DNA from: a virus
Strand: one strand, 5' to 3'
DNA: 37,206 nucleotides
Virus record (IMG/VR): IMGVR_UViG_3300024433_000021
Location: 1 to 37,206 of that record
This document shows, one piece after another, positions 4,258 through 37,206 of the stretch (the stretch's first letter is position 1; every line of letters starts with the position of its first letter). A program made the position numbers and the translations under genes. The notes under the pieces are model-generated. The model did no database searches. It was not told the origin of the DNA and worked only from the letters and a program-made list of their open reading frames with translations.

Positions 4258-5253
4258 TTAGGTCAAATATTTAAACAGATCCATTCTTCTTAGTTCATTT
4301 TCTAATTGATCTTGAAAGCCATGTTCAGAATAATTTATGACGACTTTGTTTGGGTGAGAGCGCCTGCCTAGCTCAATGAAAGTTGAGCAGCAATCAATCA
4401 GAAAGTCTTTGTGAATAGGGTTTTTCTTTAGAATATCCACAATCTTTTTAGCTCCCTCTCTATTCAATTTTTCTCTTTGCTCTTTAGGAGGCTTTTTCTC
4501 TTTCTGCGCTTTTTGAAGAAGAAGTTTATCCGCATGCTTCCTAAGTTTCTTGGGACACAGGATGTTCTGACACCAGAAATCATCAGCATGAGCAAAATCA
4601 ATGAGGGAAACGATTTCTAAAGCCGAGTGATTATCTATTCGTAGGAGTTTATCCATGTCGTTTCGCCACTGATTCCAGGTGGTCTTGGTCTCTCTGGGAT
4701 CTTTGAACTTCACACCGTGGCTTTGGATCTTTTCGATAAGATGTTTACATAGCTTCTCTACATCTGAAGAAAAAGAAGGGAGGGAAGGAGCGATAGCGAC
4801 GTCTTGTGATATACCTTTAGGTATATCTTTCTTAGTAGAATCATTATTTAGTAAACTCCTTTCTTTGTAAGAGTCACCGTTTTGGGAACGGTCATTTTGC
4901 GGACTCCCTTTTTGGCCGTGCGCAAACATTTTTTGAAATTCTCTAGGAGATTCAAAGATTAGATAGTCTCCTCTTCCCCACTTTGGTCTTCCACTTTCGA
5001 AGGTTGTGCGCCGTTGAACATAATGGCAAAGTTGATTTTCCATGAGCTCTCTGAGAATACGGCGAACTCTTTTCTCTCCACCTTCAAAAGTACGGGAAAG
5101 GTTTTTTACATTAGTATTCCAATCATCGGGACGGGACAATAGGTAAGCCCATAATCCTTTAGCTTCCCATGAAAGAGAAGATATCTCTAAGGTTTTTTTA
5201 TTTAATTGTACGTAGGGATTGTCTTTATTATGAAAGACGCGTATATTAGCCAT
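4258..5253 (-). CDS. Replication initiator-like protein (O/DnaD type, N-terminal winged HTH)
   Basis: 331 aa from ATG 5253, preferred over the TTG at 5259 because the weak GAG site spaces better to it. Residues 10-90 form a winged helix (L-S-W-E-A-K-G-L-W-A-Y-L-L-S-R-P, then E-K-R-V-R-R-I-L-R-E-L) of the HTH_36 type found in phage and plasmid initiators. A polar, low-complexity linker of about residues 110-160 separates it from a helical C-terminal half. The DNA coding for the linker contains two strong inverted repeats, as in lambda-type phages where the origin lies inside the O gene. No helicase or primase follows, so host enzymes are presumably recruited. Confidence 0.7.
   Translation of the reverse strand: MANIRVFHNKDNPYVQLNKKTLEISSLSWEAKGLWAYLLSRPDDWNTNVKNLSRTFEGGEKRVRRILRELMENQLCHYVQRRTTFESGRPKWGRGDYLIFESPREFQKMFAHGQKGSPQNDRSQNGDSYKERSLLNNDSTKKDIPKGISQDVAIAPSLPSFSSDVEKLCKHLIEKIQSHGVKFKDPRETKTTWNQWRNDMDKLLRIDNHSALEIVSLIDFAHADDFWCQNILCPKKLRKHADKLLLQKAQKEKKPPKEQREKLNREGAKKIVDILKKNPIHKDFLIDCCSTFIELGRRSHPNKVVINYSEHGFQDQLENELRRMDLFKYLT
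4808..4827. repeat. Perfect inverted repeat inside the initiator gene
   Basis: Nine-base arms (GATATACCT and its complement) flank a TT centre. It lies in the segment coding for the low-complexity linker of the initiator, where intragenic origins sit in lambdoid phages. A binding site for the initiator itself is the natural inference. Confidence 0.5.
4876..4892. repeat. Second inverted repeat inside the initiator gene
   Basis: Arms ACCGTT and AACGGT flank TTGGG, 48 bases from the first palindrome and in the same linker-coding segment. Together they could mark an intragenic replication origin. No iterons of equal sequence were seen. Confidence 0.4.
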
Positions 5254-5259
5254 ATTCAA

Positions 5260-5527
5260 CTCGTTTCTTTAGTGGCTACACAATCTTCCCCAAGACCTGG
5301 TAGCCATTTTTTTTGATCTAATTTTTCATTTTAGGGCTTTCATAAATTTTTCGACCCTGTTATCGTCAGCAGCAACTTGATGGGGATACTATCTATCAAG
5401 GAGCGTTGGCCACGAGACGTTTCAAACAACTTGTGGACTTTCGTGTTGTTTGAGGAGGAATGCAGTGGTTCGCGGACCTCCTCGTCTTTTTCTATACTTT
5501 TGTTATTACTATAGCATTTCATAAAAG
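5260..5527 (-). ncRNA. Structured leader upstream of the replication initiator
   Basis: 268 bases with no convincing gene. Read on the minus strand it has three consecutive stem-loops. The first is GAGGAGG/CCTCCTC at 5452-5483, which is leader element F. The second is AAACAAC/GTTGTTT at 5424-5451, and the third is CTTGAT/ATCAAG at 5376-5400. An A/T-rich spacer then runs to the initiator ATG. The second stem captures the conserved CAAC sequence of element F, so the two could form alternative structures. A 60-codon frame here (5340-5522) is crossed by these stems and shows no protein-like features. It could be a regulatory leader or a separate small RNA. Confidence 0.55.
5442..5483 (-). promoter_or_regulatory. 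Leader element copy F (before replication initiator)
   Basis: On the minus strand: GAGGAGG, then UCCGC, GAACCAC, UGCAUU, CCUCCUC, then AAACAACACGAAAG. It has the longest stem of the six copies (7 bp), an extra 5-base insert before GAACCAC and no second hairpin. The tail here has CACGAAAG rather than CACGAGG, and no start codon follows directly. It lies about 10-15 bases after the predicted start of a transcript from the promoter at 5503-5531. Confidence 0.6.
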
Positions 5528-5531
5528 TTAA
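5503..5531 (-). promoter_or_regulatory. Predicted sigma70-type promoter for the initiator leader
   Basis: Minus-strand TTAACT (5531-5526), a 17-base spacer, then TAATAA (5508-5503). Each hexamer matches the consensus at four of six positions. Transcription would begin near 5495, just before leader element F. Confidence 0.4.
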
Positions 5532-5794
5532 GTTTTATCTTTGATTTTATGGCGAAATCTTCGTTTACGCCTTTCCATTAAACTATCGTATTCGGTTTCT
5601 CCAGGTTCCTGCAGAAAAAAGACATGCTCGAATTCATCAATAAACTTTTCAGCTTCTTCTTTTGAAGGGAAGGTAGCGCTATAAGTTAAATCTTTTTTTA
5701 CTTTTCTATCTCTTTCATAAACTCTTTTTCTAAACTGGACTTGCCACGTAACTTTTCCTGTTTTCTTAGAGGTGTATGAGCCTAAATATGCCAT
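5528..5794 (-). CDS. Small basic protein with Arm/AP2-like DNA-binding pattern
   Basis: 88 aa. Residues 1-60 (Y-L-G-S-Y-T-S-K-K-T-G-K-V-T-W-Q-V-Q-F-R-K-R, then F-P-S-K-E-E-A-E-K-F-I-D-E-F) resemble the three-strand-plus-helix arm DNA-binding domain of tyrosine integrases and AP2-like phage proteins. No catalytic domain follows. The C-terminus is strongly basic (E-R-R-K-R-R-F-R-H-K). It is the first minus-strand gene at a divergent junction opposite the recombination operon, so a regulator of that junction is plausible but unproven. Confidence 0.6.
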   Translation of the reverse strand: MAYLGSYTSKKTGKVTWQVQFRKRVYERDRKVKKDLTYSATFPSKEEAEKFIDEFEHVFFLQEPGETEYDSLMERRKRRFRHKIKDKT

Positions 5795-5875: not shown

Positions 5876-5913
5876 GTGTGAGGTTTAGGACAACACGAAA
5901 TCGGAGAACCACG

Positions 5914-6204
5914 ATGAACCAAGAAGACCATTGGGACTATGAGCCCGAATCAGAATACATACATGTATCTGAGTTAGAAGATGTTGAACATGCTAAAGAG
6001 TTTCTTGCCGACGTAGTCGAAGGGCTATATGGCGACAAATCTTTAGATCAAATGGAGCGCTCTTTGGAAGAAGCTTGCGCTTATCTGGACGTTCCTTTTC
6101 CTAATAAGGAGCTAACAATCACGAAAAAGAACCCGTATTTTGAGTTTGGAGTAGCTTTATCGAAGCACCAAGCCCGAGTACTTTCTAGAACCACAGGAGA
6201 ATAA
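5914..6204 (+). CDS. Hypothetical acidic protein, first gene of the recombination operon
   Basis: 96 aa from ATG 5914, chosen because GGAGAACC lies just upstream. The longer frame from 5878 would begin with an implausible Arg/Thr-rich stretch inside the control region. The N-terminal half is very acidic (D-Y-E-P-E-S-E-Y, then S-E-L-E-D-V-E). No family recognised. The stop is one base before the ATG of the RecT-like gene, so it may be an accessory to recombination. Confidence 0.6.
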   Translation: MNQEDHWDYEPESEYIHVSELEDVEHAKEFLADVVEGLYGDKSLDQMERSLEEACAYLDVPFPNKELTITKKNPYFEFGVALSKHQARVLSRTTGE

Positions 6205-6205
6205 C

Positions 6206-7006
6206 ATGAAAGTGAACCACACTGTAGCTTTAAAACAACAAACAAAGCTTCCCGTCTTGCTGGAAGAATTCAACCAAACTAAATCCCTTTGCATGGAGCT
6301 TTTAAAAACAAAGCATTACCAACAAATGGGAGAAGCTGGCATCTTTGCCATTGTCCAAAAGGCCAACTCTTTATCGATTAATCCTATGGATGCATTGAAT
6401 GGAGGAATGTATTTCGTGCAAGGGAAAGTTGAGCTCTCAGCTATTATGATGGCCAAACTGATCAGAGCTAAAGGGCATTCCATTACACTAGATAAAAATT
6501 CTAACAATGACATTTGTATCCTTCACGGGAAACGTAAGGACAACGGAGACACCTGGAAAGTTTCCTTCTGTATTGAAGACGCGAAGAGAGCTGGGATCTA
6601 TAAGCAAGGTGGTCCGTGGAGTAAATATCCTGACACCATGTGCTACAACCGAGCTCTATCTAAGCTTGCTCGGCAGCTTTTTCCTGATGTGATTGGGAAC
6701 TGCTATATCGAGGGAGAAATCAGTGATGCGCCTCCCCTTTATGACACACCAGAAAATACAGTGGTAGAGCCAATTGAGGCCCATCCTCATAGGGAAGAAA
6801 ATACAGAGTCTCTTTCCAAAGAGGAAGTCCAAGAGATTGAAGAGATGATTGGAGATGATGAGGAAAGACGAAAGTCTGTTCTTTATTTCATCGAAGAGAA
6901 GTTTAAAGTAACCCAATTCGAACACTTAGCTCATGAAGACAAAGACTGGCTATGCAATAGGCTTAAAATGTCGAATGAACGTCAACAAGAAGAGGTAGTC
7001 GTTTGA
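6206..7006 (+). CDS. RecT-like single-strand annealing recombinase
   Basis: 266 aa. The core matches the RecT/Bet-type phage recombinases: P-M-D-A-L-N-G-G-M-Y-F-V-Q-G-K (residues 60-74), S-A-I-M-M-A-K-L-I-R-A-K-G-H (78-91), then W-S-K-Y-P-D-T-M-C-Y-N-R-A-L-S-K-L-A-R (138-156) and F-P-D-V-I (159-163). The C-terminal 90 residues are acidic and probably form the exonuclease- or SSB-contact region. These proteins anneal complementary strands after 5' resection. The partner is the YqaJ exonuclease two genes downstream, from which it is separated by a small gene and an HNH endonuclease gene. Confidence 0.8.
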   Translation: MKVNHTVALKQQTKLPVLLEEFNQTKSLCMELLKTKHYQQMGEAGIFAIVQKANSLSINPMDALNGGMYFVQGKVELSAIMMAKLIRAKGHSITLDKNSNNDICILHGKRKDNGDTWKVSFCIEDAKRAGIYKQGGPWSKYPDTMCYNRALSKLARQLFPDVIGNCYIEGEISDAPPLYDTPENTVVEPIEAHPHREENTESLSKEEVQEIEEMIGDDEERRKSVLYFIEEKFKVTQFEHLAHEDKDWLCNRLKMSNERQQEEVVV

Positions 7007-16636: not shown

Positions 16637-16669
16637 CCTCGTGTTGAGAGCCTAGATGTGGTTCAGGCT
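16637..16669 (-). promoter_or_regulatory. Leader element copy E (before the 1045-aa tail fibre)
   Basis: On the minus strand: AGCCU, GAACCAC, AUCU, AGGCU, CUCAACACGAGG, UAUAAUA, AUG. Five-base stem, 11-base loop and no second hairpin. CGAGG serves as the ribosome binding site of the fibre gene. It lies in the divergent region opposite the RHH operon, so it must be near the 5' end of the fibre transcript. Confidence 0.65.
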
Positions 16670-16724
16670 TTTATTTTTTATTTTCTTCCGTAACGATTTT
16701 TATTCAACAAAAAAATAGCAATGT

Positions 16725-16738
16725 GGTAAACATTTACC
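16725..16738. promoter_or_regulatory. Palindromic operator candidate upstream of the RHH gene
   Basis: GGTAAA-CA-TTTACC, a perfect 14-base palindrome 14 bases before the preferred start of the RHH gene. RHH repressors usually bind short palindromes or tandem half-sites in their own promoters, so autoregulation is likely. Confidence 0.45.
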
Positions 16739-16752
16739 TAAATGAGGAATTG

Positions 16753-16944
16753 ATGAGATATCGTCCCCGTGAGGAAGAAGCTAAGTCTAAAAAGATTGTG
16801 GTGAACGTAACTCCCAGCGATCACCAATTTTTAAAGATTTTAGCCGTGGATAACGGAATAACTATGTCTCAATTTGTCATTAGGGCTCTTTGTCATTATC
16901 TTAAAGAAGTAATGAAGGAAGACAGAGAAATAGAAACGCGTTAA
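16753..16944 (+). CDS. Ribbon-helix-helix (CopG/Arc-type) regulator
   Basis: 63 aa from ATG 16753, preceded by GAGGAATTG. An upstream GTG at 16723 would run through the palindrome and is less likely. K-K-I-V-V-N-V-T (residues 13-20) is the DNA-contacting strand. Then H-Q-F-L-K-I-L-A-V-D-N-G-I-T-M-S-Q-F-V-I-R-A-L-style helices (divided by the turn N-G-I-T) complete the RHH fold. Such dimers act as repressors or plasmid copy/partition regulators. It heads a short plus-strand operon and sits beside the divergent fibre promoter, so it could control the lysis or late switch. Confidence 0.7.
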   Translation: MRYRPREEEAKSKKIVVNVTPSDHQFLKILAVDNGITMSQFVIRALCHYLKEVMKEDREIETR

Positions 16945-18065: not shown

Positions 18066-18632
18066 CTACAATAGGGATTTATTTGCTCTCTTTATGTAAT
18101 TAAAAAGAGTAGTTTTCCCAATCCCGTACATTAATCGGATTTCCATTAAACTTAATCTTTTTTCATTGTAGATTTGGATCATGCGTTTGACCTGTTTTTC
18201 TGTCAGTTTTGGGGGACGCCCCCCTTTTCTTCCTCGGGCGCGAGCCCCCTCTAATCCTTTGAGGGTTCTTTCACGGATAAGATTTCTCTCAGCTTCCGCC
18301 ATCGCAGCCATGATAGAGTACATCAATTTGCCCGCTGAGGTAGAAGTATCCATGTCTAAGGATAATACGTGGATATGAATATTTTCTTTCTCCCATTCTT
18401 CTAGCAATCTCAGCAACAGACTGCTAGTTCTTCCCAACCTATCTAAAGAAGTGAGTGTCACCACATCTCCAGGTCTTAGGTGGGTCTGTAAGTGGAGAAA
18501 ACCTGGACGAGAGGATTTACTTCCCGTAACCACATCACTAAATATTTTTTCACATCCAGCATTTTCTAAATTTGCGATCTGATTTTCTAAAGATTGTTCA
18601 GGAGTAGAAACACGAGCATATCCAAATTTCAT
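18066..18632 (-). CDS. Serine recombinase of the resolvase/invertase family
   Basis: 188 aa. The N-terminal catalytic domain has Y-A-R-V-S9-T (nucleophile S9), R42-P-G-F and D64-R-L-G-R68, followed by the long E helix (M-A-A-M-A-E-A-E-R-N-L-I-R-E-R-T). G-R-P-P-K-L-T then leads into a Hin-like HTH (residues 145-186). Length and order are those of Tn3 resolvases, DNA invertases and plasmid multimer resolvases. No transposase or inverted repeats flank it. Start ATG 18632 after AGAGGAC. The adjacent gene-free region upstream is where a res site would be expected. Dimer resolution of a circular prophage or fibre-gene rearrangement are possible roles. Confidence 0.85.
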   Translation of the reverse strand: MKFGYARVSTPEQSLENQIANLENAGCEKIFSDVVTGSKSSRPGFLHLQTHLRPGDVVTLTSLDRLGRTSSLLLRLLEEWEKENIHIHVLSLDMDTSTSAGKLMYSIMAAMAEAERNLIRERTLKGLEGARARGRKGGRPPKLTEKQVKRMIQIYNEKRLSLMEIRLMYGIGKTTLFNYIKRANKSLL

Positions 18633-28009: not shown

Positions 28010-28369
28010 TTAAGCTCCAAAAGTTTGGCGCATTTGAAACCTAGGATCGTCCCCAACCTTCTGTTTATTCATGCGTCCTGTACCGTCTGGGCGCCATTTC
28101 CAAATAGGTTTTGCACAAGACTCCAAATGGCGAGCAATAAAACGTGGGAGTTTATATTTTCCTCCGTGGAAGAAAGTAAAGTTCTCTTTATTTTTTGCAT
28201 TTCCATATGGGAAAGTAATACTTAATCCAGGCTCTTCTAGATTCATGAATTCATATTCACAAATTTCTCTTAGAAACTGCTCTTCTTTTTCTGATTTAGG
28301 TTGTGCTCCTACAATAGGAAGGCCTTGAAGCTTATCTAGTTTACTTAAATCTTGAGAGTTCTCGTTCAT
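28010..28369 (-). CDS. Post-capsid virion-operon protein, controlled by leader element C
   Basis: 119 aa from ATG 28369. An upstream ATG at 28402 was rejected because it would translate through leader element C, whereas CACGAGG lies at the right distance from 28369. Residues 45-90 are aromatic/beta-rich (L-S-I-T-F-P-Y-G-N, N-F-T-F-F-H-G-G-K-Y-K-L-P-R). No family recognised. It follows a strong terminator, so it needs a new transcript or read-through. Confidence 0.6.
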   Translation of the reverse strand: MNENSQDLSKLDKLQGLPIVGAQPKSEKEEQFLREICEYEFMNLEEPGLSITFPYGNAKNKENFTFFHGGKYKLPRFIARHLESCAKPIWKWRPDGTGRMNKQKVGDDPRFQMRQTFGA

Positions 28370-28374
28370 ATTTA

Positions 28375-28420
28375 CCTCGTGTTGTTGTTCTCCCTGCCTC
28401 ATGGCAGATGGTTCGGAGAA
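28375..28420 (-). promoter_or_regulatory. Leader element copy C (before the 119-aa gene)
   Basis: On the minus strand: UUCUCC, GAACCA, U, then hairpin CUGCC-AUGA-GGCAG, GGAGAA, CAACAACACGAGG, UAAAU, AUG. Six-base outer stem and five-base inner hairpin. This copy has GAACCAU in place of GAACCAC. Its outer stem begins inside the U-tract of the preceding terminator, so the two are contiguous. Confidence 0.7.
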
Positions 28421-28448
28421 AAAGGGTAGGGATATTTAGTCCCCACCC
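28419..28448 (-). terminator. Rho-independent terminator after the capsid gene pair
   Basis: Minus strand: GGGTGGGGA... arm pairs with TCCCTACCC (one mismatch, loop CTAAATA), followed by TTTTTC. It lies 8 bases beyond the stop of the post-capsid beta protein. It should reduce expression of tail genes relative to the capsid genes. Confidence 0.8.
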
Positions 28449-28455
28449 AAGTTAT

Positions 28456-30023: not shown

Positions 30024-30081
30024 CCTCGTGTTGTTGTTGTGCTCATCTCTCTAGCACTATGCTAGAGAAGTGGTTCTGAGC
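30024..30081 (-). promoter_or_regulatory. Leader element copy A (before major capsid gene)
   Basis: On the minus strand: GCUCA, GAACCAC, U, hairpin UCUCUAGCA-UAG-UGCUAGAGA, GA, UGAGC, ACAACAACAACACGAGG, AAAUU, AUG. The outer stem is 5 bp and the inner hairpin 9 bp. It begins only 6 bases after the scaffold stop, so it is inside an operon. CGAGG is the ribosome site of the capsid gene. Confidence 0.75.
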
Positions 30082-30835: not shown

Positions 30836-31207
30836 CTATTGTGTTACGTAGGCTCTTGGGATGGTTGTTGTTTCTACGACAACTTCATCACATGCCTTTG
30901 CTCCCAATCCTGGGAGGGCAGTAAAGTCAAACGGACGCTGAGGCATATTCACCTCCCAGTCGATAGTGCCTTTTGCATTATCAACCTTTCCAGCGATCAT
31001 CCCCACTTGAGATGAAGGCTCGGCCTTATAAGCTTTAATGTGTTTTATCAATGTGGGCTTTCCGTCTACGCTACTCTTGGAGGGTTTTGCAAATACGACG
31101 ATCCAATAAGGTTCCCGAAGGTTCTTATTTGCATCGACGATGTCGGCAATTTGTTTATTGTCCTCTTCAATAATAGCGTCGCGGGTTTCCCCAGTCTCTT
31201 GACTCAT
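30836..31207 (-). CDS. Hypothetical head-operon protein between portal and scaffold
   Basis: 123 aa. Residues 32-75 are mixed beta (P-Y-W-I-V-V-F-A-K-P, then L-I-K-H-I-K-A-Y-K-A-E-P-S-S-Q-V-G), ending with a Val/Thr-rich strand (E-V-V-V-E-T-T-T). No family recognised. Its start is governed by leader element B. The position suggests a head-assembly accessory. Confidence 0.55.
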   Translation of the reverse strand: MSQETGETRDAIIEEDNKQIADIVDANKNLREPYWIVVFAKPSKSSVDGKPTLIKHIKAYKAEPSSQVGMIAGKVDNAKGTIDWEVNMPQRPFDFTALPGLGAKACDEVVVETTTIPRAYVTQ

Positions 31208-31213
31208 AGTAAT

Positions 31214-31269
31214 CTCGTGTTGTTGTGCTCTATTTGTGTAGACAATGTCTGCACAAAGTGGTTCAGAGC
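31214..31269 (-). promoter_or_regulatory. Leader element copy B (before the pre-scaffold gene)
   Basis: On the minus strand: GCUCU, GAACCAC, hairpin UUUGUG-C-AGAC-AUU-GUCU-A-CACAAA, U, AGAGC, ACAACAACACGAG, AUUACU, AUG. Compared with copy A the outer stem changes A-U to U-A at the inner pair (compensatory), and the inner hairpin sequence is entirely different but still pairs. Confidence 0.75.
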
Positions 31270-33686: not shown

Positions 33687-33931
33687 TCACAAATAGGTTG
33701 TACTCTCACCGTATTGAAAGTGCGAGGCCGATGATACGGCATCGAAAGGAGAGCTACTCCAACCCCGCGTGTTGTTTAATTGGCTAGTAGTGGTTCAGCC
33801 AGTAAATTTGCCCATCCTCAATTTGTCGACGGATCTCGAAGGGCTACCGTCTTTCCCTGGGATAACTCCAGTCTCTTATTTAAGTCCGAGGTCGCGACTG
33901 CACAAACGTTACCAAAATGATAACATTGGTG
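33687..33931 (-). other. Structured leader of the portal gene
   Basis: 245 bases without a gene, less AT-rich than its surroundings. In order on the minus strand: a 9-bp hairpin (AAUGUUAUC/GGUAACGUU, two G-U pairs) right after the upstream stop, CAGTC/GACTG, GACGG/CCGTC, leader element D, a hairpin in the GGAGTAGCTCTCC segment, GCCG/CGGC, and CGCACT/AGTGCG enclosing CAATACGGTGA. The last phrase recurs before the HTH gene at 36441. It looks like a regulated leader or a small RNA. Confidence 0.5.
33768..33801 (-). promoter_or_regulatory. Leader element copy D (portal leader)
   Basis: On the minus strand: UGGCU, GAACCAC, UACU, AGCCA, AUUAAACAACACGCGGGG. Five-base stem, 11-base loop, as in copy E. 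CACGAGG is replaced by CACGCGGGG and there is no start codon within 10 bases. The portal ATG lies about 80 bases downstream, so direct control of its ribosome site is less obvious here. Confidence 0.6.
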
Positions 33932-34792: not shown

Positions 34793-36032
34793 ATATTTCC
34801 TCTAGTCTCTCGGCATCATCTTCGTTCATTGACGGGCCTAGCTTCTTGTTAAAAAAGTGCGTATAGAGCGCATACCTTTGCGCATCCATAGCATGATCAT
34901 TTTGCTTAATCGGCTTGTCTTCGCCCCTTTGCGAGGCTTTCGAATCCCAGAGATAGTTGCTGAACTCTTTGAGCGTTTGGGTGCAGTTGGCGCAGATTTT
35001 GTACGTACCATTGGTTAACAGTTGCCCCGTAAATCGGATTCCTGGAAGGACATCATTAATAGCGTCAGCGACATTTCCTACTCCATTTCTTCGTAGCTCT
35101 TGCCTAAAGGAGGCAGCGCTAGGATCTATATAGATTCTTTTTACATTGTATCCGGTAACAAATTCTTGTAAATCTTTTACATAATCATAATCACTTTTCT
35201 GTCTTAGTTCTTTTTTAGAATCGAAATAATACTCTTTTTCCAGCCACATATTAGGGTAACCACCAGGGTTATAACCGATAAGAGAAAATACGCAAGGGTT
35301 AGTAGTCCCGTAATCAACACCCACAATGTAATAATCAGCGACAGACTGAGGCATTTGTATAACGTGATAATCTTCATTAAAAAAGTCATAAACAGCTCCA
35401 TCCGCTAACACCCAATCCCCGAGGATATATCTTTTGTACCAGAGTCCCTGGTATTCCCGCGATATCTCCTCAATGAAGTTCTCACTAAGAGAAGGATTAT
35501 CCCGTATATTAAAGGAAAATATTTTTATGTTGAGTTCATCCGGCCGATCAATGTAGTCTGTTTTCAGCCAGTGATATGGCGAATCAGGATTTGTAGAAGC
35601 AAACAACTGAGCACCCTCGACAGATAATCGAGATAATAACATTTTAAAAAACCCTTCAGGGATCAATGTTGCTTCATCAATTAGCGCGCCGGCGAACTCG
35701 GAACCGCGTATCTTACCCTCTGCCCTTTCGTCATTGGCACCGACAACATACATAAGCCTATTATAGAGAGTAACTTCCCCCTTTCCAATTGAGTAATTTA
35801 AAGCGTTTCCAACGAGCTCTTGAAGAGGAAGAATAATATTTCTTTTTATGGTTTTATCTGTTCTCCCACAGATCAAAAGAGGTCCAGAAGGTCCAGTTCG
35901 ACAGAATTCCAGCCACCTCAGCATTGAGATGAAAGACTTCCCTGCCCTTACAGGACCCTCAAAGATATTGATCCGAGCGTCTGACTTTTGATAAGAGTCT
36001 AGCTGGGTCTGACTGAGCTGCTCAATGAACAT
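34785..36032 (-). CDS. terL: Terminase large subunit
   Basis: 415 aa. ATPase: Walker A G26-P-V-R-A-G-K-S33, Walker B A-L-I-D-E-A (116-121) and coupling motif S-T-N (146-148). Nuclease of RNase H fold: D240-Y-G-T-T, Y-I-D303-P and N-D-H-A-M-D383, giving the three metal-binding acidic residues. Length and motif spacing fit the PBSX/Terminase-6 groups. It cuts and pumps DNA into the prohead through the portal. Start ATG 36032 overlaps the HTH gene by 11 bases. Confidence 0.92.
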   Translation of the reverse strand: MFIEQLSQTQLDSYQKSDARINIFEGPVRAGKSFISMLRWLEFCRTGPSGPLLICGRTDKTIKRNIILPLQELVGNALNYSIGKGEVTLYNRLMYVVGANDERAEGKIRGSEFAGALIDEATLIPEGFFKMLLSRLSVEGAQLFASTNPDSPYHWLKTDYIDRPDELNIKIFSFNIRDNPSLSENFIEEISREYQGLWYKRYILGDWVLADGAVYDFFNEDYHVIQMPQSVADYYIVGVDYGTTNPCVFSLIGYNPGGYPNMWLEKEYYFDSKKELRQKSDYDYVKDLQEFVTGYNVKRIYIDPSAASFRQELRRNGVGNVADAINDVLPGIRFTGQLLTNGTYKICANCTQTLKEFSNYLWDSKASQRGEDKPIKQNDHAMDAQRYALYTHFFNKKLGPSMNEDDAERLEEIYG

Positions 36033-36441
36033 AAATGTTGTCTACTACCTTCCCAAGGTGAGCCGAGCGACTAAGAATAGGAAGGGTATTGGCTCTTTCC
36101 CGATCTATCTTGTCTAGAGTCTCTGGAGACACACGACATGTTATTGGCTTACTCTCAGCAGTAGCTGTCTTAGGCTTGAGGCAAGAAGTAATGTCCACCA
36201 CCTTTTTCTCATCAAGAGCCAGTTCTTCTTGCTCCTCATCAGGAATCTGGAATGTCTTTTTGAGATACTCTATAAAATCCTCTTGGCGTACTACCCATAT
36301 GCCATACTTCCCACCCATTTGGGTTCCTTTGATCACTCCCTTTTGAAGAGCGTTGGCCACGGTACTTTTCGTAACGCGCATGTACTCTGCTATCTCAGCA
36401 GTATTTAAAATATCTTTCTGTAAGTTTGATGGTAGGTCCAT
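36022..36441 (-). CDS. HTH plus RHH-like protein next to terL (possible small terminase or regulator)
   Basis: 139 aa. Residues 12-60 are an excisionase/MerR-like winged HTH (L-N-T-A-E-I-A-E-Y-M-R-V-T-K-S-T-V). A linker follows, then residues 98-135 (I-T-C-R-V-S-P-E-T-L-D-K-I-D-R-E-R) look like a ribbon-helix-helix. Two DNA-binding modules in one small protein directly before terL make it a candidate small terminase or late regulator. The TerS-like protein at 451 is the competitor. Start ATG 36441 after GGTGAAGAT. Confidence 0.55.
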   Translation of the reverse strand: MDLPSNLQKDILNTAEIAEYMRVTKSTVANALQKGVIKGTQMGGKYGIWVVRQEDFIEYLKKTFQIPDEEQEELALDEKKVVDITSCLKPKTATAESKPITCRVSPETLDKIDRERANTLPILSRSAHLGKVVDNIYVH

Positions 36442-36923: not shown

Positions 36924-37206
36924 TTACCGTACCCCTTCCGTTTGTAGTAAAGGGGGGCCTCCGAGTGTTTCCCAAAAACTCTGGAGTACTCCATTCGCTT
37001 GATTTGTTCGTGGAAAGGAACTGGCGATTTAGTTCCTCTTTTTTTCATATTAAGCCAGCGCTGAGCTTCTCTCGTAAGACCTCCTTCTTTCGCTTCTTCT
37101 TCCTCTTTCTTCTTTTTATAAAGAGATTGGGTCCGAGATTGCAGTTCCTTCTTGCATTGAGGACTACATGTTGACTCTCCAAATCGTGGTATAAAAAGAG
37201 AGGGGC
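36920..37206 (-). CDS. Zinc-finger protein, C-terminal part (continues from the left end)
   Basis: C-terminal portion of the gene that starts at base 283. After the Lys/Glu-rich helix in the repeat it reads G-G-L-T-R-E-A-Q-R-W-L-N, then a basic tail ending K-R-K-G-Y-G-K and TGA at 36920-36922. The stop overlaps the next ATG (ATGA). The continuity confirms that the two window ends are neighbours in the molecule. Confidence 0.65.
   Translation of the reverse strand, partial: PSLFIPRFGESTCSPQCKKELQSRTQSLYKKKKEEEEAKEGGLTREAQRWLNMKKRGTKSPVPFHEQIKRMEYSRVFGKHSEAPLYYKRKGYGK
37081..37206. repeat. Terminal direct repeat, right copy
   Basis: Exact copy of bases 4-129. The base before it is C, which restores the zinc-finger reading frame, whereas the left copy is preceded by A. 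Confidence 0.9.

Follow-up and report, generated by a model that had tools for sequence, protein, structure and literature searches.

A probable small RNA gene opposite the replication initiator leader of a virus, with predicted target sites in early and late leaders

The short region before the replication initiator gene of the virus analysed here probably codes for a trans-acting small RNA (sRNA) of the phage. The gene would consist of element F and its neighbours on the plus strand, end at the F hairpin, and give an RNA that pairs with many phage leaders and represses their translation. Two surfaces of this RNA, the exposed hairpin loop GUGGUUC and a seed just 5′ of the terminator, are complementary to two motifs that stand close to or within the ribosome-binding sites of eight or more other genes of the phage. 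The chances are about even for a wider proposal, in which this one RNA, antisense to the initiator, governs translation of the genes for replication, recombination, portal, capsid and fibre via coevolving two-part sites, as a protein-free means of immunity or timing, possibly in phages of Chlamydiae. If true, the RNA would play the part of a master repressor, immunity groups defined by RNA would be expected, and the sRNA with its target leaders would supply a data set of RNA-RNA coevolution.

The window, i.e., the whole stretch of DNA analysed, is a 37.2-kb virus record. It has an identical 126-bp terminal repeat at 4-129 and 37081-37206, so the genome is probably complete, either circular or with terminal redundancy. 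On the minus strand, the region of interest (5260-5531) sits between an 88-aa gene (5528-5794) and the replication initiator gene. Of the window genes that were inspected, none was recognised as an integrase or as part of a lysogeny module, and a tRNA search found none. The capsid protein has 146 confirmed matches in IMG/VR, with 77-97% identity among the 80 kept. One related phage, L137 (JAAKFB010000001.1), with a capsid identity of 85%, comes from a Chlamydiae MAG, in which it forms a 36-kb contig. This contig is the sole hint of the host, which is uncultured, and suggests that these are possibly phages of Chlamydiae; no F-like element was seen before its portal gene. Below, W denotes the window phage and G or L numbers denote its relatives; G1 is L121, and G7, G8 and G9 are L131, L132 and L136.

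A predicted small RNA gene on the antisense strand

A sequence-only reading of the region had described a leader of the initiator mRNA with a promoter-like TTAACT-17-TAATAA, element F, a stem capturing the AACAAC tail of F, and a third stem. All of them were located on the minus strand. There, F reads GAGGAGG..GAACCAC..CCTCCTC from 5483 to 5452 and is followed by the tail AAACAACACGA, and CAAACAAC/GTTGTTTG form the stem that captures the tail. The promoter-like sequence is weak, with 4/6 and 3/6 matches to the consensus, under the cut of the scanner; TTAACTTTTATG in this promoter region is kept in G1 and G2. Folding of the 272-nt stretch beats shuffled sequences (z -1.87; 6 of 200 shuffles were as good). 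The same reading had suggested a small RNA, and this part is retained as a prediction; the strand is reversed, since it is the antisense strand that has the terminator features.

Element F was compared in detail in 11 phages (W, G1, G2, L130, G6, G7, G8, G9, G11, G12, and G14). All 11 have a T-rich 3′ flank after antisense F, with four to nine T in nine bases. In 10 of the 11, the antisense hairpin equals or exceeds the sense hairpin in stability, for example in G2 (-17.2 vs -6.8), G8 (-18.4 vs -9.7), and G7 (-20.5 vs -15.7). The exception is L130, whose sense-strand hairpin has a slight advantage. The F stems of G2, G7, and G8 contain two or three G.U pairs on the antisense strand, at which the sense strand would have A.C mismatches. 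The predicted F terminators have the GC-rich hairpin and the U-rich stretch of an intrinsic terminator. The T stretch after F of G2 is weak (ACTTTGT). In W itself, F has a long loop, its T run begins only after a 3-nt spacer, and the terminator scanner does not call it. A sense-strand terminator after the F tail was found only in L132. The gene downstream of F is of the initiator type by homology in W, G1, G2, L130, and L131/L132/L136, and by reading the frame in G11, G12, G14, L164, and L165.

A 60-codon open frame covers much of the region, and its conservation as a protein had been named as a finding that would speak against the RNA. It is not conserved in this way: over the first 42 codons, W and G1 differ 3, 5, and 0 times at the three codon positions, none of the differences being synonymous, and no similar frame was found in G2. 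A coding role was thus rejected because the substitution pattern is non-coding. The non-coding frame, the T-rich flanks, and the asymmetry in stability and G.U pairing in favour of the antisense side together argue that what is conserved here is a gene for an antisense RNA.

From 5′ to 3′, the predicted sRNA has one or two hairpins, a seed, and a terminator with the loop motif (Table 1). The loop GUGGUUC and the adjacent seed UCGUGUUGUU are the complements of two motifs common to the target leaders. All 11 phages of the detailed comparison have this architecture, and a specific pattern scan for the seed, the loop, and the T run added two further contigs. The scan gave five matches in 2.9 million IMG/VR records, three already known and two new; in both new records the match lies opposite an initiator-like frame, and each contig also encodes RecT and ParB-like homologues. 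The seeds vary among relatives (ACUCGCGUGUAGGUU in G7, CCUCGUGUGUAGGU in G8, and CUCUCGCGUGUAGGU in G9), as do the loops (GUGGUAU in G2, GUGGUUU in G6, and GGUACUC in L130). In L130, L164, L165, G14, and G2, the seed lies partly within a small hairpin. This is the tail-capturing stem of the sequence-only reading, which recurs in relatives as CUACAC..GUGUAG, GACAC..GUGUC, or UCCAA..UUGGA; the stem exists, and a seed-bearing hairpin of the antisense sRNA is a better reading of it than the arm of a switch.

I infer a promoter for the sRNA and a repressive sign of its regulation from the sequence; no convincing consensus of a conserved promoter was found among the phages compared. The region has no match in Rfam, either at the gathering threshold or at E<=1, and hence no detectable homology to a known RNA family. 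As IMG/VR queries, the initiator protein gave nothing new and RusA gave only G1, G2, and L130 plus remote matches, while a pattern scan for the motif and tail gave mostly chance matches, only L121 being real. A 36-nt imperfect direct repeat (75%; 5388-5423 and 36335-36370, with GAGCGTTGGCCACG in common) is shared between the sRNA region and the gene 36022-36441.

The third stem (TGGCTAC..GTAGCCA) also stands as a structure, and its role changes with the strand. In the four closest phages (W, G1, G2, and L130), seven to nine T follow it on the antisense strand, so that it looks like an antisense terminator. The stems of G2 and L130 have G.U on the plus strand and A.C on the minus strand, and comparable terminators are present in L131, L132, and L136. 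Inside the initiator gene, TATATT/TATAAT of a candidate antisense promoter is kept in G1, G2, and L130, and the Ile codon there is ATA in 4/4 cases (genome frequency 0.19-0.31). A shorter antisense RNA of about 60 nt is possible though weakly supported; it would be driven by TTGTCT-17-TATATT, cover the ribosome-binding site of the initiator, and stop at the third stem.

Table 1. Positions of the predicted sRNA gene, the initiator locus, and the putative target sites in the window
Feature	Positions	Strand	Remarks
Replication initiator gene	4258-5253	minus	HTH; DnaD-like/O-like, PHROG E 3e-19
Candidate antisense promoter TTGTCT-17-TATATT	5219-5247	+	inside initiator codons 3-4; weakly supported
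Third stem GTGGCTAC..GTAGCCA, then TTTTTTTT; putative intrinsic terminator for antisense transcription upstream of the sRNA	5272-5314	+	T run kept in G1, G2, L130
60-codon open frame, non-coding	5340-5522	minus	W-G1 substitution pattern; no similar frame in G2
Predicted sRNA gene	5376-5491	+	5′ end uncertain; hairpins 5376-5400 and 5410-5436, seed 5437-5453, terminator 5452-5491
sRNA hairpin CCACGAG..CTTGTGG	5410-5436	+	G.U pair on + strand only, A.C on minus; A-U in G1
Seed ACUUUCGUGUUGUUUGA	5437-5453	+	complementary to target-leader tails (AACAACACGA)
Element F, predicted antisense terminator hairpin GAGGAGG-AATGCAGTGGTTCGCGGA-CCTCCTC, then GTCTTTTT	5452-5483	+	loop GUGGUUC complementary to GAACCAC
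Promoter-like TTAACT-17-TAATAA of initiator mRNA	5531->5503	minus	overlaps extended -10 (TGCTATAGT)
Putative target at start of ParB-like gene 1098-1616	1598-1639	minus	tail CAACGCGAAA pairs via G.U; tail inside gene start
Putative target at RBS of 5914 gene (RecT operon), GGACAACACGAAAUCGGAGAACCACGAUG	5888-5916	+	order tail-SD-motif
Probable target at RecT RBS (GAACCAC..AAUAACAUGAAAGU)	6188-6220	+	best duplex in window, -17.2 kcal/mol
Putative target before fibre gene (AGCCT-GAACCACATCT-AGGCT-CTCAACACGAGG)	16637-16669	minus	motif + tail
Putative target before gene 28010-28402	28375-28420	minus	GAACCAT instead of GAACCAC
Putative target before major capsid gene	30024-30081	minus	motif + tail
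Putative target before gene 30836-31207	31214-31269	minus	motif + tail
Putative target in portal leader	33763-33801	minus	element in portal leader of about 20 related records

Putative target sites and their concerted change

It had been claimed that F is common to the initiator and the capsid and fibre genes. In the window, GAACCAC lies within 60 nt of CAACACGA (1 mismatch) at seven places, F included, while letter-shuffled pairs give 0.10 on average and one at most; the sharing is thus far beyond chance. The proposed link between replication and morphogenesis through the shared element holds as well, as F-type sites precede the initiator, capsid, portal, and fibre genes. The shared unit is a short P1 stem of variable sequence around GAACCAC, sometimes a second hairpin, and a tail ending CAACACGAGG; it precedes the capsid, fibre, portal, 28010, and 30836 genes. 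A strong P1 was seen in 29 of the 30 target copies examined, and the P1 results comprise 28 distinct ones. When P1 half-elements were swapped between phages, 48% of the swaps reached the threshold, and this test discriminates weakly since the stems are alike.

The position of the motifs relative to the Shine-Dalgarno (SD) sequence differs between the two classes of genes. The tail of late leaders extends into the SD, whereas in early leaders the motifs flank it, their order being reversed (ACAACACGAAAUCGGAGAACCACGAUG at 5888-5916 in W; similar in L130, G6, G7, G9, and G11). The portal target lies about 80-110 nt upstream of the start codon. Many other MCP relatives have no such element before the capsid gene.

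Do the motifs in the leaders change together with F? The co-occurrence of motif and tail is far above that of shuffled motifs in W, G1, G2, G7, G9, G11, and G12, while the strict motif pairs are few in G8 (two) and L130 (one), F included. The leaders of W and G1 carry GAACCAC and AACAACACGA. Those of G2 have AUACCAC and CCAACAC, in F and the targets alike. In G6, AAACCAC occurs at five sites and GAACCAC at none, and the same variant is found in F. The L130 leaders have GAGUACC and AGCUAGACAC, and ACACGUGAG of G14 is found in two other leaders. Some deviating targets still pair as G.U, namely AACCUAUACGCGAG in the G7 portal leader, ..ACACGCGAGG in the G8 portal leader, and GGCAACGCGAAA at the 1098 gene of W; the targets were located with a G.U-tolerant score, and retained G.U pairing is supporting evidence only. 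The duplex energy of seed and leader alone showed no enrichment over shuffled seeds in most phages. Among 200 shuffled seeds, the number as good as the real one was 18 in W, 10 in G2, 5 in G7, 77 in G1, 167 in G9, and 141 in L130, and such seed-only enrichment is not taken as proof because it is not significant in most phages. The leaders are A-rich, which raises the background complementarity.

Proposed action, rival explanations, and known RNAs

In the proposed mechanism, the sRNA loop would pair with GAACCAC and/or the seed would pair with the tail. Repression of translation would be the simplest outcome, with the pairing covering the SD and start region, because the late tails run into the SD and the early motifs flank it. 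I infer that the initiator gene is the cis target, for whose leader the sRNA would be a perfect antisense. By blocking replication or recombination genes and virion genes together, the sRNA would probably act as a phage-wide brake for immunity, timing, or copy control. The portal target overlaps GCGAGG, which is able to pair with a downstream CCUCGC, and the sRNA may therefore remodel the leader structure there. Several observations count against the sRNA: the missing consensus promoter, the seed energies, the few strict motif pairs of G8 and L130, the reversed motif order, the weak T stretch of G2, the sense-strand preference of L130, the T-rich fibre copy, the distant portal site, and the many MCP relatives that have no element before the capsid gene. 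With the order tail-SD-motif, simple antiparallel zippering would not let the loop and the seed pair at the same time.

A flexible motif order would be no obstacle if the sites were read by a protein. All copies including F might be sense-strand cis elements, where a phage translational repressor or activator recognises GAACCAC and the ACACG tail with no sRNA involved. A hairpin of variable sequence maintained around the motif, with P1 strong in nearly all targets, would suit such a protein, and its coevolution would likewise give a concerted change of the motifs. It leaves the longer stem, the T-rich 3′ flank, and the better opposite-strand pairing of the initiator copy unpredicted, however, and no candidate protein was identified, so that I regard it as unlikely. 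The perfect complementarity with the initiator leader, and the conservation of the F and third-stem terminators antisense to it, would equally be expected of an antisense RNA that controls the initiator in cis only, like plasmid copy control, the late leaders being unrelated or relics. However, the motifs co-occur and change in concert in the capsid, portal, fibre, and RecT leaders, and control in cis only appears quite improbable.

The sequence-only reading had offered, as one of two possibilities, a switch or riboswitch made of mutually exclusive stems in the sense-strand leader of the initiator mRNA. Stems of this kind are compatible with the minus-strand sequence, and folding of the region beats shuffles. 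However, conserved pairing on the mRNA strand was not found, as A.C mismatches break the sense F stem in G2, G7, and G8; the third stem is better on the plus strand in G2 and L130, Rfam similarity is none, and both the stability and the T-rich flank of F favour the antisense strand. A two-state switch is thus highly improbable. Even if A-rich leaders raise the background complementarity, functionless chance hairpins and local repeats, or a short protein-coding frame, would hardly give the family-wide conservation, the five specific pattern matches in the whole of the records scanned, and the non-coding substitutions, and this explanation has only the slightest chance of being correct.

How would the predicted sRNA compare with known RNAs? 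Bacterial trans-encoded sRNAs have a hairpin, a short seed, and a terminator with a U stretch, and pair imperfectly at many ribosome-binding sites. The predicted sRNA shares that layout; in contrast, it is phage-encoded, has phage targets, and would use the terminator loop as a second contact. A possible chlamydial host would probably lack Hfq.

Among phage RNAs, the system might work like the P4 CI and P1 c4 RNAs, the new part being a far wider regulon. As with these, the prediction is of an untranslated RNA gene with its own terminator and complementarity to the leaders or ribosome-binding sites of phage genes. The c4 RNA of phages P1/P7 is an antisense RNA whose loop complementarities block the ribosome-binding site of ant and which controls phage development (PMC12197685). 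The predicted RNA resembles it in the loop complementarity to ribosome-binding sites; however, c4 RNA targets one gene, whereas here at least eight leaders of early and late operons would be targeted by an RNA antisense to the initiator leader. The CI RNA of the satellite phage P4 is a small trans-acting RNA that pairs with seqA and seqC and thereby terminates transcription of the replication genes (PMC4825925). The likeness lies in the predicted pairing of a small trans-acting RNA with leaders of replication genes. Unlike CI RNA, which causes premature termination in one transcript, the present system generally lacks a sense terminator after the target (L132 being the only case), includes structural genes among its putative targets, and shows no Rfam homology to it at E<=1. 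Lambda OOP RNA, P22 sar, and lambda aQ are cis-antisense RNAs near replication or regulatory genes (PMC12197685), and each acts on the single gene that it overlaps, whereas a genome-wide target set would be the feature of the present system. The phage antisense RNAs in the literature consulted act on one gene or one transcript; here, the putative sites lie before early and late operons.

Further features of the target leaders

A terminator-like stem (GGGTGGGGACTAAATATCCCTACCCTTTTT) lies at about 28421-28450 on the minus strand, directly before the 28010 target, and similar stems are present in G1, G2, and L007. Between the portal target and the start codon (33709-33768, minus strand), there is a larger conserved structured RNA with the GCGAGG..CCUCGC stem, for which no Rfam match was found. 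It is also present in L028, L045, L052, L056, L062, L075, and others, and many relatives have an inner hairpin with UGAUCA. A hairpin loop of this RNA (CCGUAU in the window and CCGCUA in relatives) can pair with a downstream AUACGG/UAGCGG, the two sides covarying.

In the fibre copy (16637-16690), a T-rich stretch follows the hairpin on the plus strand too (AGGCTTTTATTTTTTATTTTC), in W, G1, and G2, and this hairpin is possibly a second antisense terminator. It adjoins a divergent small gene (16723-16944) that is ribbon-helix-helix-like by eye. About 1.4 kb from the fibre gene, 18066-18632 encodes a protein of the serine resolvase/invertase family, by which inversion of the fibre region is possible.
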